This document shows positions 2,069 through 14,987 of a stretch of 64,000 nucleotides of DNA, in pieces. Position 1 is the stretch's first letter. The number at the start of each line of letters is the position of its first letter. The DNA is taken from the NCBI RefSeq assembly GCF_037996825.1, contig NZ_JBBNAC010000001.1:2232001-2296000 (forward strand), read 5' to 3'. The DNA is from Bdellovibrio sp. BCCA. GTDB taxonomy: Bacteria > Bdellovibrionota > Bdellovibrionia > Bdellovibrionales > Bdellovibrionaceae. The notes under the pieces are model-generated. The model was not told where the DNA came from. It searched no databases and worked only from the letters and a program-made list of their open reading frames with translations. The position numbers and the translations under genes were made by a program.

Positions 2069-2183
2069 AGGAACTCCTTTGATTTAAAAATAAACAAGCG
2101 AAAGTCGTGCCGCGCTTACCAACACCAGAGTTCATTTCTTCTGTCAAAGGGATCTTCGTAAATTCACAAATTGTGCCGCTAAC

Positions 2184-2206
2184 GTTGCTAGAAAATTAAA
2201 AGCAAC
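2184..2206. promoter_or_regulatory. GTTGC dyad, copy 1 (candidate operator)
   Basis: GTTGCT at 2184-2189 and AGCAAC at 2201-2206 around an AT-rich 11-base spacer, in the divergent gap between 2068 and 2263. The same dyad recurs at 4430, 5715 and 15141. The binding factor is unknown. Confidence 0.4.
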
Positions 2207-2262
2207 ATTTTGTGGAGCAATGAATTCTCAAGCAGATTCACTCTCAATCCGATACATCACCT

Positions 2263-3885
2263 ATGAAAAGACTTTTAATTCTTTCTTTGATTTTGCTCTC
2301 TAACAAAGCTTCGGCTCAACGAACTGTTTGCACCGTTACGCTCAACTCTGAACACGAACGAAGCCTTTTCAAAAGAAAGTATGAAAAAGAAAATCTGAAA
2401 TTTGTTGAGCTTACTGATTTTAAAAACGGATTGAAAGATCCCAACGACTGGTTCGATAACGCCTGTAAAAGTGGCGTGAAATGTGATTCGCTCATCATCT
2501 CAGGACACTTTGGAGGAACCTTCTTTGGCGAAGACACAAGCCTCACGTTGTCTCTAAAGACTCTCGAAAAGAAAGCTTGTAGTCGCACGTGTGAGGGAAT
2601 TCTGTCTCAACCCAAAGAGGTCTATTTGTTTGGCTGCAATACTCTCGCTGACAAAAAAGCGGATCGTCGAACTCCCGCTGAATATCGCCGCATTCTTCAG
2701 GACGACGGTATCGCTGAAGGCTATATGAATCGAATTGTTGCTGCTCGCTATAGCCCCGTCGGAGAATCTTTTAAGACTACGATGCGGAAAGTTTTTGCTG
2801 GTGTACCGCAGATTTATGGATTTGACTCTGTAGGTCCTTCTGGAAAAACGGTCAGCTCCTTTCTGAATTCTTATTTAAATAAAATCCCGAACTATGCAGA
2901 ACGTCTTAATCAGCTGGAGGCTGCAAAGGTGGTTTCTCAAATAGAAAAGACAGGAAAGATCGGCACTCAATTTTCCGGACCTTGGAACTCATCCATGAAA
3001 GGAACGGCCTACGCTTCTTGTGTGGGAGCTACACCGGGTCCCAGGAAAGAATGCGGTCTTTCTGACGACAAGAAATCTGATTTTGAAAAGCTGTTAACGG
3101 TAGAATCACTATTGAATGATGGAAATCGCAAAAACCATTTTCTAGCTATCGAAGAGTTCTTTAAAGACAAAGATCTCTCCCGTCTTAGTTCCGACGAAAG
3201 GCAGGTTCTAGAGCGCATCCACAATAACAAACAAGCATCGCAAGAATTGCTGAGCCTTTTGCCACAACTTAACTCTGTACTTGAAACCAAGTTTCCTCTT
3301 GTGAATTTAGCCCAAACGCTGGGATGGATGGATGAAAAAAGTGCGAAGGATGAATATTTTAAAACAGTGTCTCTTTCGTTAAAAAAAGGTTTAAATGGTG
3401 ATACCATCGGATCACTTTGTTATATCAACAATCCCCCAATTTTTTCGGAGTCTCAAATCAAGCCTGAATGGTTTAATAATACAAAATTTTTGACGGTCTT
3501 AGGATGCTGGCAAAACAATAAGGCCCAGATGTTACCTCCTCACTACGTTACGAATATCACTAAACATCTTAACAGCAAAGACGCCGACACGACGACATCG
3601 GCACTTAAGATCTTGTCACCAAATTTAAAAGCGGATCCGGCCTTACAAAGAAATGTTGCGAAACTTCTTTATTCAGAAGATTTGAATATTGCAGCCGCCG
3701 CGATGAGTGCCCTAGCGTCAATCCGCAATCCAGATGCAGAAACGATTTCGCTAATTGCTAAAGGACTCTTGTCTCCCAACCCGGCTGAACAGAAACGGTC
3801 TGCCTATACGATCATGAATATGAAAATTCAGAATCCCGATCTAAAACGTCGAGCGTTGGAAATCGATCCCTCGATCAAGCCATAA
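2263..3885 (+). CDS. secreted protein with caspase/CHAT-like His-Cys motif and C-terminal helical repeats
   Basis: 540 residues with a signal peptide cleaved near 18 (KASAQ). Residues 76-130 hold IISGHFGG (His82) and, 43 residues later, YLFGCNT (Cys125). A His in a small-Gly turn followed by a Cys after a hydrophobic strand is the pattern of clan CD cysteine peptidases (caspase and CHAT families). The region to about 200 continues with mixed alpha/beta sequence. From about 430 to the end the protein is Ala/Leu-rich paired helices, like HEAT repeats (SALKILS, AAAAMSALASI, KRSAYTIMNM). The protease assignment is inference from two short motifs; the export signal and the helical tail are clear. 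It stands alone on the plus strand, 57 bases after a GTTGC dyad. If correct, it would be an exported peptidase with a protein-binding tail. Confidence 0.6.
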   Translation: MKRLLILSLILLSNKASAQRTVCTVTLNSEHERSLFKRKYEKENLKFVELTDFKNGLKDPNDWFDNACKSGVKCDSLIISGHFGGTFFGEDTSLTLSLKTLEKKACSRTCEGILSQPKEVYLFGCNTLADKKADRRTPAEYRRILQDDGIAEGYMNRIVAARYSPVGESFKTTMRKVFAGVPQIYGFDSVGPSGKTVSSFLNSYLNKIPNYAERLNQLEAAKVVSQIEKTGKIGTQFSGPWNSSMKGTAYASCVGATPGPRKECGLSDDKKSDFEKLLTVESLLNDGNRKNHFLAIEEFFKDKDLSRLSSDERQVLERIHNNKQASQELLSLLPQLNSVLETKFPLVNLAQTLGWMDEKSAKDEYFKTVSLSLKKGLNGDTIGSLCYINNPPIFSESQIKPEWFNNTKFLTVLGCWQNNKAQMLPPHYVTNITKHLNSKDADTTTSALKILSPNLKADPALQRNVAKLLYSEDLNIAAAAMSALASIRNPDAETISLIAKGLLSPNPAEQKRSAYTIMNMKIQNPDLKRRALEIDPSIKP

Positions 3886-7165: not shown

Positions 7166-10100
7166 CTACATATCCGAGATATAGCTGACGTAAGCCGTTG
7201 TTCCCGCTTTCAGAATCGTTACCAAAACATGTCCTGACGTATTCGAAATCACGCCACCCGAGCAAGCTGGTGCACATCTCCAAGTAGTAACGCTTGAACC
7301 GGAGAGCGTGTAACTTCCCGTATTCTGAACAATCAACGTATAACTTGTTCCATCTTGCATGTTATTTAGTACCAATGTACCTGCAGCCGCTGTCGTTGCG
7401 ATAACGTTGGCTGTCGAGAAATCGACCGTCAGACTTGATATCGCAGAATAAGCCGTTGTAAGAGATCCACCGGAAACTTGAAGTTTCGAAACTGGAGTGG
7501 TTGTACCGATACCAACACTGCCGGTTGCGCTATCCATGGAAAGTGCGGTCGTAGGTGTAACACCATTATAAAATGTAAAGTTGAGATCGTTTTGCTGAGC
7601 CGCTGTCGTGTATGCGTTGCCTTTACCTTCAATAGCCCAACCTTTGGACGTAGCATCTGCCAGACCAGTGGTATTCCCGTTCAACGTTACGATTTCTAAA
7701 ACCGCTGAATTTGTCGCCCCAGCTCCTCCTGTACCAATAGTCGTACGAACCGTTCCAGAGTTCGCGACATGAAGACGCGAGTTTACATAGGGCGTTGTTC
7801 CGATACCGACGTTGCCGGAAGAATCGATACGCATTTTTTCGAGCCCGCCGTTGGTAAAACCTATTGTCGAGGCCGCTGGACGATAGATTCCTGTCTGGGT
7901 GTCCCCAATAAACGAATAAGGTGGAGTCGTCACTGCAACGCCTGAGGAATTGATCAGAGCGGAGCCTGTTCCTCCCACGCCCTGAATTCCGATGTTGGTA
8001 AACGCAAATCGTTGGGCACCACCAGCAGAAAAGCCAACACTGGATGCCGCGACCGAGTAAAATCCATCGGTGTTTTGACTGGAGAATGTGATGGATGGAA
8101 GAGTTGACGTCCCGGCAGCCGCTTTGAACTGTCCCGTCATCGCAACAGATCCATCTGATTTAAAATCACCGGTGCCCGTCGGAATCGCCGTATTACAAAT
8201 CAATGATCCTGTTCCATCCGATGTACACATTGAGTTGTTCGTAATTCCGCTCACACCAATCAAAGGTACGTTACCGGAAGCTGTTCCTGTATTTTGAATT
8301 GCCGCAGTACCAAGACCTAAATTGGATCTTGCTGCCACAGCCGTGGTGGCTCCTGTACCACCACCCGCGAGCCCCAACGTTCCGAAGGCAGGCGCTGCTG
8401 CTCCTGCAGAAATCAATGCTTGTCCTGAAGTTCCTGCGGCTGTTGTCATGGCTTTACTTCCATCCATATACAAGATTCCACCAGCAGTAACTCCAAGAGA
8501 TCCGTTGTTTGTTCCACCACGAGCGATTGGTAAAACGCCTGATGTTAATTTACTCGTATCATGACTAGGAATCATAGCTGTCGCAAGCAATCCACTCGCA
8601 TCTAGTTTCGCGATTTTATTTGCATCACCTGCGCCACCCGCAGTTCCTGAATTCAAAGTCAAAACTGGAGTTGTCGTAGGCGTTGCAACCGATATATCCG
8701 TGTTAAAACTAGAAACATTCGTCACAGTTCCGCCACCACCAGAGGCCGCAATCGTAATTCCTCCAGAAGAGTTCGTAACCGTAATTCCGGAACCCGCTGT
8801 GATATTGGCTAAAGAAAATCCTGTTCCGTTACCAATCAAAAGCTGTCCATTTGCGGCATTGGCGTCAGGATAACTTACGACTCTCTGTCTTGCTGGAGTG
8901 CTATTTGTCCAATAAAGATTTGTTCCATTGCTTTCAATATTTCCGCCAACGGGAGTTGTGACCAATGATCCAGCTGGAATCCTCATTGGTGAAAGAGCGG
9001 TGGAACCGACTGCTAAAGTCAGCATGCCCGTCATCGTGTCACCAGTTTTCTGAACTGCTCCCGTGATACGCGAGTCATTACCCGCAGCAAAAGTTGTTGC
9101 CGTCGTCCCTTGTAAACTTGAGATCGTAATATCTGTTGGAGCTGCCGCAGAACCCGTGTTGTTTCCTTTTAAAGTGTTCGCAGCCATATTGGCCATCTTC
9201 GCATTTGTCACAGCACCGGCAGAGATAGTCGCCGCTACGGAACCAGATCCACTAGCAGTCACATCTCCCGTCAGAGTTGTGATTCCTGCGCTTGGAATCG
9301 CAGTATTACAGATAATTGATCCCGTTCCATCTGACGTACACATCATGTTGTTCGTAATCCCACTCACACCGATCAAAGGAACGGTACCTGAAGATGATCC
9401 TGTGTTTTTAGTTGCCGCAGTACCAAGACCTAAATTTGTTTGTGCTGCTACAGCTGTCGTCGCACCAGTACCACCGTTTGCGATTGGCAATGCGCCAGAA
9501 ACATCAGTCGTTAAGCTCACAGAATTACCACCAGAGAGAACACCTGCTGCCGTATTCTTCACAAAACCAGCCGTACTCATTCCAGACAAAGTCATACCTG
9601 TGAACGTCGGACTTGCTGCTGTATGAATATTCTGAGGAGTGGAAAGTGTAATCGCATTTGCGGCATTCGTAACAGTGATCTGATTAGCTGTTCCGTTAAC
9701 CGTCTTATATTCATAAGCAGTTCCAGCAGCGTTCATTCCCAGCATCTGATTTGCAGTACCCAACGATGAAAGGCCTGCTAGAGAGATTGCCGGAGTTGTG
9801 CCACCAGTTGAACTTAATGGCAAAGTCGCAGTGACATTGGTCACTGTTCCGCCACCACCAGAAGCAGCAATCGTGATTCCTCCGGAAGAGTTCGTCACTG
9901 TAATTCCGGAACCTGCTGTGATGTTAGCTAAAGAGAAGCCAGTTCCGTTACCAATAAGAAGTTGGCCGTTCGCCGCATTGGCGTCGGGATAACTTACAAC
10001 TCTTTGCCTTGCTGGCGTGCTATTTGTCCAATACAGATTTGTTCCGTTGCTTTCGATATTACCACTAACTGGAGTTGTCACCAAAGCTCCCGCAGGGATT

Positions 10101-13100
10101 CTCATCGGAGAAAGCGTTGTTGTACCAGTTGCCAACGTCAGCATGCCCGTCATTGTGCCACCGGAAGTTTGCAATGCGCCTGGCGCCGTCTGAGCCTGGC
10201 ACGCAAAACCAGCTGCTGTCCATGTCGGAACGTGCCCTACTGTCGAGCAAGCAAATTCATAAAATTTGTTCGTACTATCCACCATGGCAAATCCAGTTGT
10301 CGCCGTATTCACACCTGTGAAATTCAAATCAGAACCGAGAATAGTTCCATCTAAAATTTTTCCTGTTGTTACTGCGTTCGCCGCAATTGTCGCTGCTGCA
10401 GAGCCTGGACCGGAAGCAGTGACATCACCGGTAAGGGCTGTCACGTAATTGCCACCAGCTTGTTTTGTATTAAAGGTATTCCAATCCGTTGAACTAAGAT
10501 AACCATCCGTTGAAGTAGTAGCCTGAGCAATTGTGATATTCGGAGTTGCACCACCGCTTGAGGAAAGCGGTGCTCCCGCAGTAACACTGGTTACACCACC
10601 AGCACTAGAGATCCATGAGAGATTTCCTGAGGCATCCGACTGAAGCATTTGATTTGCAGTTGGAGGATTTGTTGGCAATGTCAGTGTATAAGCAGCCGTT
10701 AATGTCCCAGGCGATTTAATATAGACACTTTCAGGACCCGTAGTATCTTTTAACTTGATACCTTTCGTTGCACTGAACGTTAAATCTCCTGTCATCGTGT
10801 CTCCGGCGATATTCACGGGAGTAAAACCTAAAGCCGTTGTTACATCGGAAGAACCAATATTGGCCCCCGTCGTGACACGACCTTTTGCATCCACTGTGAC
10901 TTTGGAATAAGTTCCTGCAGTTACACCCGAGTTTGCGAGTGTCAGGGCGCCCGTATTTGAAATCGTCGCATCACCTGACATTGTTTGTGCAACTGCTGCA
11001 TTCGTTCCATCACCAATCCAGATTTTTCCGTTAGCAAGTGAAGGTAGAAGTGGCGTTGGTGCCTGACACGCCCAACCTGTTGCTGTCCATGTGGCTACAT
11101 TACCAGTCGTTCCGCAAGCGAAATCAAAAAACTTTCCTGTGCTGTCTTTGATAACCAACCCAGATGTGGCAGTATTGACTCCGCTGTAATTTAGATCCGC
11201 ACCAACGATAGTACCATCTAAAATTTTTCCCGATGTCACAGCATTCGCAGCAATCGTCCCGGCAACGGATCCAGGACCCGTCGCAGTTACATCACCCGTC
11301 AATGCCGTGAGATAATTTCCTGCAGGTTGTTTCGTATTAAACGCGTCGTAATCTGTTTTACTTAAAAGACCGGCCGTCGTTCCTGCAGTCGACGCCATGG
11401 GAATATTCAAAGTATGAGTGTCAGATGCTGAAGACCATCCAGGAGAAGGTCCTGTTGTTCCAATTGCAAATCCTTGTGTTGAACCTGTTTGCCCACCAAG
11501 AGACGTCAAACCAGCACCAGAGATACCTAAAGCTTTTACGGCGGCTCCATCCCAGTATTTCACTTGGCCTGTTGTCGTATTAAACCAAGTTTTACCTTTA
11601 TCTCCAGCACCATATCCAGCAACAAGAGTCCCTTCGGTTGCATTCGTATAATTAGCTAGACCAATACTGCCAGTCATCACGTCACCCGATTTATTGAGTG
11701 GCGTGTAACCTAAAGCTGTCGTCACATCAGACGACCCAATATTCGTCCCCGTCGTGACACGACCTTTCGTATCCACTGTGACTTTGGAATAAGTTCCCGC
11801 TGTGACACCAGAGTTTGCTAACGTTGTCGTCAATGATCCCGCTGTTGACGTCACATCTCCTGTCAGAGCCGGCATACGCGCCGCTGCCAAAGTTCCTGTT
11901 GCGTCTGCAGTTCCAAGATCTACTGCATTTTTTGTCGCCAAAGAACCCAAACCTGTAATATCAGAATTTGCAAGTTGTGCAGCAACCCATGCTGATCCAC
12001 TCCAACGAAGCGTTTGTCCTGTTGTTGAACCATTTGAAATAGAAATAACAGGAGCTGCACCTCCAGAACTTGCAAGCGGCGCCGTTGCCGTAACGCCAGT
12101 CACAGTTCCTGTTCCAGCATTATCAGTTCCGCAAATCCAACCTGTGCCATTCCATTTTAAAATTTCGTTATTCGCACAAGCCATGTTGTTAGGTTTATAA
12201 GAAAGATATTGTCCTGCAGCTGAAGACACATGATCCACACGAACATTATTTACAGTTACAACACCCGCGTTATCAATCGCAGCATCTCCTGACATCGTTT
12301 GGGCAGTTGCTGCATTTGTACCATCACCGATCCAAATTTTTCCACTGGCTAATGAAGGCAAAAGTGGTACCGGGGCCTGACACGCAAAACCCGTCGCGGT
12401 CCATGTAGGAACATGCCCCGTAGTCGCACACGCAAAGTTAAAAAACTTTCCAGTGGAATCAACAACCGCAATTCCTGATGTCGCCGTATTCACACCGGTG
12501 AAATTCAAATCGGAACCCAGAATAGTTCCGTCCAAAATTTTTCCCGACGTGACAACACCAGTTCCGAGGGTCATGGCTCCTGTATTGGAAATTGTTGCAT
12601 CTCCACTAAGAGAAACCTCTTGCGCCTTGCCCGCTCCGTCACCAACCCAAATTTTAGTATCAGCTAAATTCGCGGAGTTAGAAACTGCGTCTAGCTTTGA
12701 ATTAAATGTCGACCAATCCGACGAAGTTAAAAGACCACGGTTTGTGCTAGATGCACTTGGCAAATTAAACGTATGTACTGTTCCTGAAGAAGAAATACCA
12801 AAATCAGTACCTGTAGAACCTGTTGCGAATGTCTGTGTTGATCCATTTAAACCATTCATACTTTGCAGACCAGAGCCAGCCGCTCCTAATGCAATCGCCG
12901 CAGTTCCATTCCAATATTTAATTTCATTGGTATCAGTGCGATACCACATTTTACCGTTGTCGCCTGCACCTAAACCTGTTGGGTCCGATGTTACGGCATT
13001 TAAACCCAAAGGACCTGCCATGACATCACCGGCTTTGTCTAATGGCGTATATCCAAGAGCTGTCATCACATCCGCTGATCCAATATTCGCACCGGCTGTC

Positions 13101-14722
13101 ACCCGCCCTTTGGCATCGACAGTCACTTTTGAATAAGTTCCCGCCGTGACACCGGAGTTTGAAAGCGTTAAAACGCCAGCATTGGAAAGTGTGGCGTCTC
13201 CAGTTAGATTTTGTTCTTGCGCTTTGTTTGTTCCATCACCAATCCAAATTTTTCCATCGCTCAAGGTCGTATTATTAGCGACGTCAGCTGTACCGCAAAC
13301 CCAATCAGTGCCGTTGTACTTAAGGATCTCCCCCACCGCGCACGTTTTTGCGATAAAGTTTTTCGCAGAACTTCCGTCCCAATATTTAACGGTGTTGGTC
13401 GTTGAATTGTACCAGATCTTTCCCGCATCTGCGGCAGTTAAGCCTGTCGGATCCGAAGCGTTATTGGAAAGATGCAAGGACTTTCCAGCATTCATCGTGA
13501 TGTAACCTGTATAAAGCAGATTATTTCCCGACATATTGATATCACCAGAAAGAGTTCCCCCCGAAAGTGGTAACTTTGTCGTGTCATTTACAGTAATGCC
13601 TGTCACAGCCACAACTCGGCCTTGAGCATCTACTTGCAATTGCGGAATCGTATTGGCCGAGCCATAAGTTCCCGCTGTAACCCCCGTCGCACTCAAAGCA
13701 GAACAAACAAATGAATCAGAAGCAGAACTCCATATTAAAAACTCATTGAGCCCGCAAGAAGATGCAGGCCAAGGACTTGTCGAATTGGCGTTCGTCATGT
13801 CTGTATAATTCATTTTTTGAGCGACCCAAGCACTGCCATCCCAGCGAAGTGTCTGTCCAGCTACAGCGCCTGCACTAAGAGAAATAACAGGCGTTCCTCC
13901 GCCACTGCTGTTTAGTGGCGATTGTGCGGTGACTGAAGTCACCGTCCCGACACCCGCGTTATCGGTAGCACAAGCCCAAGCAGAACCATTCCATTTTAAA
14001 ATTTCGTTGTTGGCACAATTAAGCCCCGCAATTCCCGAAATGGGTGAAGGCACGCTTGTCAGTGCACTCCAAGGAACATTTGTAAGACTTGCGCCATCTT
14101 TAGGATCATATGAAGTGAATCCACTTCCATTCCATACAATACCTTGGTTTGTGGATGTGATCACTTTATCGAAATAATCTTCAAGCAACGCCTGGCTGAT
14201 TTTCGGTGATGTTTGAATAAACTCACTCGCCGATTTCCCCTCGAGCCTTTCCGATTCAATAGCAAACGCCGTAGCGCGAATATTAAAGTCCACGTCGATT
14301 GTGTCGGAATAAGCATTAAAAATAAGGCGAAGGCGTCTGCCATCCTGCTCACCGGCTGTCGGAGTATACGTACAAGTTCCTACTCCTCCAGAAACGGAGT
14401 TTAAATTAGGTTTAGACGTTTTATTATTGAACACCGAGCCCATCGTAAAACCTGGATCTCCGGCACTGCGAGCTCCCCCGCCCACGACCAAGTTCAAATA
14501 CCCTTCCGTCACATTTATGCTGGCATGAGTCTCGTCATACAAAATACAATCATTGGGAGACAATACTTGGAGTCGAAGCGGGACTCCAGTGACACTCAAC
14601 GGATTGCCATTAGGTTGTTTAATATAAGCCTGAAACGTCATGCCCTTATGAGTCTGAGCGTAGACATACTGAGGAAATAGGGCGACAAGGACGACCAAAA
14701 AACTCCAAATGAAGTTATTCAT
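7166..14722 (-). CDS. giant secreted fibre protein, MAT-like (mosaic adhesive trimer)
   Basis: About 2,518 residues. I choose the ATG at 14722 because GGAGGGAG lies 7 bases before it and a signal peptide follows ([22 protein letters not shown]); the frame opens 9 codons earlier. After a unique N-terminal domain (to about 170) the body is built of tail-fibre-like repeats rich in Gly, Ser, Thr and Ala: four [10 protein letters not shown]-type units, several [12 protein letters not shown] units, TALGYTPL units, and SSGG-TP-ISL units. Two blocks of about 93 residues are nearly identical. Near the C-terminus come two VGIGTT-P-L-V motifs, typical of trimeric tail-fibre necks, and a last roughly 90 residues with WRCAPAC that look like a tip domain. 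No S74 auto-cleavage domain was recognised. Bdellovibrio MAT fibres have this architecture and bind prey. The gene overlaps the lipoprotein gene upstream by 8 bases. Confidence 0.85.
8713..8995 (-). repeat. fibre gene internal repeat block, copy B
   Basis: Encodes about 93 residues (SPMRIPAG through GGGGTVTNV, including [20 protein letters not shown]) that are almost identical to those encoded at 9834-10110. The DNA copies differ mainly at third codon positions, so the duplication is not recent or is under selection at protein level. Ends are approximate. Confidence 0.8.
9834..10110 (-). repeat. fibre gene internal repeat block, copy A
   Basis: Partner of the block at 8713-8995, about 1.1 kb apart. 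Such long near-identical segments allow homologous recombination that would shorten or lengthen the fibre without breaking the frame. Ends are approximate. Confidence 0.8.
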
Positions 14723-14987
14723 AAAAGACTCCCTCCACTTGATATCCATTCGCCAATTTCTTTTTTTGCGCTAATTCGTTCCAGGTTCCTTGAATCTTGT
14801 ACCCTGAAGCCGTCGTAATGAATTCGGTCTGAGTCATCTCCGCTTGACCACTTTTAGTTTGTTTGTGGTCACTTTCTTCTGCTGTTTTACTTAAATTCGA
14901 GATGGAAGCATCAAGGCCGCATCCAGATAAAAGGAGCCCTTGAGCTGATAGAAATAGAGTCATAATTTTTAAAGCTGTTCTTTTCAT
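14715..14987 (-). CDS. small lipoprotein, partner of the fibre
   Basis: 90 residues with a lipoprotein signal (charged MKRTALK, hydrophobic core, lipobox LLSGC with Cys23). The mature part is mostly polar (Lys, Glu, Gln, Thr) with no recognised domain. Its last codons overlap the fibre start, and the fibre ribosome site lies inside this gene, so the two are translationally coupled. I infer a role in anchoring, export or assembly of the fibre. A start ribosome site (GGTGG) precedes the ATG. Confidence 0.75.

Follow-up and report, generated by a model that had tools for sequence, protein, structure and literature searches.

The window, the whole stretch of 64,000 nucleotides of Bdellovibrio sp. 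BCCA DNA analysed here, contains on its forward strand an open reading frame that starts with ATG and encodes a protein of 540 residues (Table 1). Its sequence contains the segments LIISGHFGG, which holds His82, and EVYLFGCNTLA, which holds Cys125, 43 residues further on. The preliminary description had picked out this reading frame, the two motifs and the gap between them, and the translated sequence bears all of these out. Among the 162 open reading frames of at least 150 residues found in the window and in ten homologue loci, a loose His...Cys motif matched 11. These all belong to one protein family, so that the dyad motif is more than a chance occurrence. The domain that contains it in the window protein gave no usable match in searches of Pfam and NCBIfam or in phmmer and profile searches of the PDB.

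Table 1. Features of the gene and its product, with positions in the window
Feature	Position	Strand	Basis
Whole gene, exported CHAT-like/helical-repeat protein, 540 aa	2263..3885 (stop included)	+	Open reading frame; homologues of the same architecture
Signal peptide, residues 1–18, cleavage probably after ASA	2263..2316	+	Sequence; crude signal-peptide rule in the family
Caspase/CHAT-like alpha/beta domain, residues ~19–208	2317..2886	+	AlphaFold2; SAVED-CHAT match; hhalign against CHAT
Cys23, predicted disulfide partner of Cys74 (2482–2484)	2329..2331	+	Co-occurrence
Cys68, predicted disulfide partner of Cys110 (2590–2592)	2464..2466	+	Co-occurrence
His82, dyad histidine	2506..2508	+	Conservation; pairs with the CHAT His in the profile alignment
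Cys125, dyad cysteine (putative nucleophile)	2635..2637	+	Conservation; pairs with the CHAT Cys in the profile alignment
HEAT/armadillo-type helical solenoid, residues ~273–535	3079..3867	+	DSSP of the model; armadillo matches; HEAT_2 in homologue L004

The N-terminus of the protein, MKRLLILSLILLSNKASA/Q (the slash marks the cleavage position), looks like a signal peptide. A crude rule for such peptides is passed by 59 of 64 family proteins, a count that includes near-duplicates and in which the starts chosen for L081, L088 and L096 appear to be wrong. Both observations support the earlier suggestion that the protein is exported. Two pairs of cysteines in the domain that follows tend to occur together. 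Cys23 and Cys74 are both present in 96 and both absent from three of 99 domains, with no mixed case, and Cys68 and Cys110 are both present in 84, both absent from 13 and mixed in three of 100 domains (the counts ignore the relatedness of the sequences). Pairs that are kept or lost jointly are the pattern expected of two disulfides and fit an oxidising compartment. We infer a location outside the cytoplasm, most likely in the periplasm.

The conservation of the dyad was assessed on 102 unique homologous domains, 101 of which span both sites. His82 is kept in 100 of these 101, Cys125 in 100 and both together in 99. Loci L061–L097 (37 in number) had been recruited by a pattern containing SGH, which guarantees the His in them; domains known only from these loci were therefore left out of the dyad counts, although they are still included in the counts based on 61 and 127 rows. 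Two of the 127 unique matches are fragments that lack the dyad region, and A1 and A3 (26 rows) were made from selected loci, as against all 85 genomes with matches. Of 203 positions, just five (N28, E32, S80, H82 and C125) are conserved in 97% or more of the domains. The commonest spacings between the His and the Cys are 42 residues (44 of 101) and 43 residues (36 of 101). Natural losses of a single dyad residue are seen in L214 (His to Glu) and L238 (Cys to Ser), which from their sequences may be pseudoenzymes. In clan CD enzymes a Gly comes directly after the catalytic His. PMC4357240 names a Gly next to the His as a feature common to every family of the clan. The residue after the dyad His in the present family is Phe in 81, His in 17 and Tyr in three of the 101 domains and is never Gly; the Gly directly before it (G81) is kept in 120 of 125.

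AlphaFold2 modelled the full-length protein with a pLDDT of 89.8 and a pTM of 0.83 (23 sequences). When the whole model was compared with known structures the helical repeats swamped the results, and the N-terminal domain was consequently folded alone, giving a pLDDT of 93.5 and a pTM of 0.89 (61 sequences). The order of strands and helices in the model is b-a-b-a-b(H82)-a-b(C125)-a-b, the five main strands being at residues 20–26, 45–49, 76–80 (followed by H82), 119–123 (followed by C125) and 183–187. Helices follow the strands at 20–26 and 45–49 and a short hairpin at 86–88, three more lie between C125 and the strand at 183–187, and one comes after it. Besides the hairpin, the model has a further strand at 250–253, possibly the sixth. 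According to section 15 of PMC4357240, the dyad of all clan CD members lies at the C-terminal ends of β3 and β4. H82 and C125 come directly after β3 and β4 in the model and thus occupy the clan CD position.

Comparison of the N-terminal domain with known structures (VIA) gave SAVED-CHAT (8tl0) as the best match, with Z 9.8 and an rmsd of 3.5 Å over 147 of 212 residues. It was the sole chain among 1000 with Z of at least 8 and stood 2.3 Z units above all others. Legumain (C13), an extracytoplasmic clan CD peptidase, reached Z values of up to 7.5, the flavodoxin-like SsuE 7.3 and receiver domains up to 7.2. Since the legumains are tied with flavodoxin-like and receiver folds, their matches are at background level and carry no weight, and the profile alignment with legumain showed no similarity in the correct register. 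TPR-CHAT and separase structures are not among the VIA matches listed, which does not exclude them. Foldseek gave no match to the domain in the PDB at E < 0.001; caspase-3 appeared at ranks 2 and 4 with E ~0.008–0.009, amid flavodoxin-like and receiver folds. A viral fold library likewise gave no match at E < 0.001.

Alignment of the family profile with that of CHAT by hhalign, a test that does not draw on structure, scored 30.1 over 104 columns, and the printed alignment places H82 and C125 opposite the His and the Cys of the CHAT dyad, respectively. None of 150 column-shuffled controls reached this score (mean 12.6, SD 2.2, maximum 18.8) and the reversed profile scored 11.1. A larger family profile of 121 rows scored 28.1, with an hhalign probability of 12.5%. 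The corresponding scores were 19.0 for C13, 13.6 for C14, 14.1 for C11 and 12.4 for C25, against 18.1 for a receiver-domain control. When the same test was applied to known clan CD pairs, CHAT–C14 scored 26.8, and CHAT–C11 and C14–C11 were at noise, indicating that the test is specific but has low power between families of the clan. As the CHAT profile is made from six sequences and the hhalign probability is 17%, the similarity to CHAT is support, not proof. The window domain does not reach the gathering cut-off of PF12770 (0 families). The best Pfam CHAT match in the family, E 0.056, came from one of 61 members and was not recovered among 10 of the 61 that were re-examined. PADLOC and NCBIfam scans of the 61 members gave scattered single weak matches, with best E-values of 0.0047 and 0.002 (the latter to a peptide-precursor model). 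The preliminary description had taken His82 and Cys125 for a clan CD dyad and had proposed a comparison of the predicted structure with caspase and CHAT folds. The strand and helix order is indeed of caspase type, the dyad follows β3 and β4, and the top structural match is a CHAT protease. The one departure from the clan is the residue after the His. On balance the N-terminal domain is likely to belong to clan CD and may work like a CHAT protease.

The C-terminal part of the model is a helical solenoid, its helices running from residue 273 to 534. The structural search matched it to designed armadillo proteins with Z up to 13.0, although helical repeats score high Z values easily. Pfam HEAT_2 falls short of its cut-off in the window protein (E 0.018) but exceeds it in the homologue L004 (E 5e-18). 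HEAT-like repeats had been noticed earlier at the very end of the protein, and the repeat region proves to be larger than was then thought. With the window tail as query, the first round of a search retrieved 15 of 60 family tails, counting the query, and iteration raised this to 56; E-values of the later rounds are inflated because the matches enter the model. Burkholderiales tails are among the 56, and the combination of N-terminal domain and tail thus looks like the ancestral form. The tail of L007 reads as a histidine kinase near a contig end, is probably an assembly artefact and supports no claim.

A protein search found matches in 24 of 59 near genomes, own genome included; across the phylum, a profile search found them in 85 of 290. 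Within the genus, 16 of the 23 other genomes have a match and seven have none. Scanning a wider collection with a His-containing pattern gave 37 loci, including some in Ramlibacter, Piscinibacter, Rhizobacter and Rubrivivax. Ten Burkholderiales sequences cluster in a quick tree with an SH-aLRT of 100. Tblastn searches of plasmids and of phages gave no family match at E 0.01. Whole orthologues of the window type are present among the 59 genomes in G021 (same genus) and G035 (another genus), 56% and 49% identical, respectively, and G010 has an orthologue-type piece cut by the contig end. The two whole-orthologue loci (L241 and L242) have no conserved neighbours in common with the window gene. 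The Bdellovibrio sp. BCCA genome has no match to the CHAT, C14, C11, C13 or C25 models, and the family is the sole clan CD-like one in it by the models tried. It does carry a paralogue (L029, at C1:3072880) of 604 residues, 42% identical over residues 11–205, with the same dyad and a signal peptide; its C-terminal part is unlike that of the window protein and its end is Cys-rich.

Two other subfamilies are found at fixed places in the Bdellovibrio genomes examined (L243/L244 and L245–L247). The former type, that of the paralogue in the same genome (L243 6959–8770, L244 6896–8812), lies on the opposite strand inside an apparent dcw cluster in both genomes examined, flanked by what we take to be the cell-division genes of that cluster, with FtsZ, FtsA and FtsQ on one side and MurC, MurG, FtsW, MurD and MraY on the other. 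The neighbour of the latter is presumably a rluB-like gene, judging from the start of its sequence. Three consecutive family members, apparently tandem copies, occur in L225 (G221:C43:15207, 17769 and 20739). In L024 (463–1962 on the reverse strand and 2078–3367 on the forward strand) a distant family member adjoins a clostripain-like (C11) gene.

CHAT proteases are known from antiphage defence and CRISPR immunity, where they act as switches inside the cell. Separase (C50), which carries a helical scaffold, is also a caspase-like protease, eukaryotic and intracellular. CHAT (PF12770; SAVED-CHAT 8tl0, and TPR-CHAT/Csx29 of Craspase) remains the best structural and profile match. The family resembles TPR-CHAT in its His–Cys spacing of 42–43 residues and in a protease domain joined to helical repeats. 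PMC9729208 gives the TPR-CHAT dyad as H585–C627, 42 residues apart. It also describes a switch of the dyad distance from ~7 Å to ~3 Å by target RNA and a resemblance to separase, the protease to which bacterial CHAT is said there to be most closely related. Unlike CHAT, the present family is exported, apparently disulfide-braced, under the Pfam CHAT cut-off and without Gly after the His. Unlike TPR-CHAT, the window protein has its protease domain at the N-terminus and the solenoid at the C-terminus, and it contains neither a CRISPR nor a nucleotide sensor. Pfam CHAT itself matched none of the 114 phylum genomes searched. Clostripain (C11) and gingipain (C25) are likewise secreted bacterial clan CD peptidases but scored at the control level in the low-power profile alignment with the family; their Pfam models match 38 and 37 of the 114 genomes, respectively, and neither matches the genome studied here. 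The family is not described in the titles and abstract openings of the papers found on CHAT, clan CD and Bdellovibrio caspases or cysteine proteases. In our reading it is a new family of exported proteins within the clan, lying towards CHAT.

The best explanation of these data, to which we give a probability of about 0.7, is that the window gene encodes an exported, disulfide-braced, solenoid-gated clan CD cysteine endopeptidase, nearest to CHAT, with His82 and Cys125 as its dyad. The signal peptide would be removed and the mature protein would work in the compartment proposed above, its N-terminal alpha/beta domain braced by disulfides C23–C74 and C68–C110 and the dyad held at the ends of strands β3 and β4. 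Cys125 would act as the nucleophile and His82 as the base in the attack on a peptide bond. The HEAT/armadillo solenoid may bind a substrate or a regulator and so gate the active site, a proposal modelled on partner binding through the TPR part of TPR-CHAT in Craspase. According to PMC4357240, S1 specificity in clan CD is set by helix 1 together with loops 1, 4 and 5, and MALT1 has an Asp on helix 1. Glu32, kept in 99 of 101 domains, sits at the start of helix 1 in the model, in a region of S1 specificity, and on this basis we would guess at a preference for a basic residue at P1. An exported, disulfide-braced, reverse-order CHAT-like family with a helical scaffold would extend the CHAT lineage to the cell envelope. 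A broader proposal, which we put forward tentatively and would not expect to hold in full, is that the proteins constitute a clan CD peptidase family not described before, an envelope-located, disulfide-braced and HEAT-gated branch of CHAT/separase with one subfamily fixed beside cell-division genes. If true, Bdellovibrionota and a few Burkholderiales would have in their envelope a gated protease that resembles separase.

The same fold could serve a purpose other than proteolysis, as a structural or binding module or as another Cys enzyme, such as an acyl or thioester transferase, on a scaffold. That the His is never followed by Gly would be accommodated, as would the want of a significant family match for the window domain, the loss of one dyad residue in L214 and L238 and the numerous alpha/beta folds found at Z 6–7. 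A mere scaffold would, however, have no need of such strict conservation of the His and the Cys, which both rank in the top five of 203 positions, and both residues pair with the dyad of CHAT; we consider such a role unlikely. That the domain is just a flavodoxin-like or receiver-like alpha/beta sandwich, with the dyad motif a coincidence, is very improbable. SsuE and the receivers do tie with legumain in Z, but SAVED-CHAT stands clear of them all, the receiver profile scores far below that of CHAT, and the dyad is conserved. Membership of the legumain (C13), caspase/metacaspase (C14), clostripain (C11) or gingipain (C25) families rather than a CHAT-like one also appears very unlikely: the Z values of the legumains and the caspase-3 rows among the top Foldseek results are in its favour, but the legumain values are tied with those of the flavodoxin-like and receiver folds and the hhalign scores of all four families are at the level of the receiver control, albeit in a test of low power.

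A different question is that of the role of the clan CD endopeptidase proposed here. The preliminary description had suggested that the enzyme could act on prey proteins or on the cell's own surface. The secreted proteases of the host group matter for predation, and an exported protease released into the prey could digest or mature proteins of the prey or of the bdelloplast. The export signal and the Bdellovibrionota host are consistent with this, as is the presence of other cysteine proteases among the secreted predatory proteins of B. bacteriovorus reported in PMC11003981. The patchy spread of the family, which reaches Ramlibacter, Piscinibacter and Rubrivivax and misses seven of 23 genomes of the same genus, argues against a role in predation only. 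Within the genus the orthologue type is seen whole in G021 and as the contig-cut piece in G010, and its two whole loci share no neighbours with the window gene. A function in predation is thus possible but, as the wider spread does not favour it, doubtful.

Two further regions of the window were noted. Upstream of the gene, the neighbouring open reading frames at 589–975 and 1050–1502, both on the forward strand, match a single 277-residue open reading frame of L248 (13480–14310), and the second of them encodes a DUF4423 protein (E 9e-18). A frameshift, either genuine or introduced during assembly, seems to have split the gene. Downstream, on the reverse strand at 7166–14749, is a gene for an exported, Thr/Ala/Gly-rich repeat protein of 2527 residues that reads like a surface protein of tail-fibre type; a 1618-residue open reading frame near the family member of L248 is 27% identical to it.
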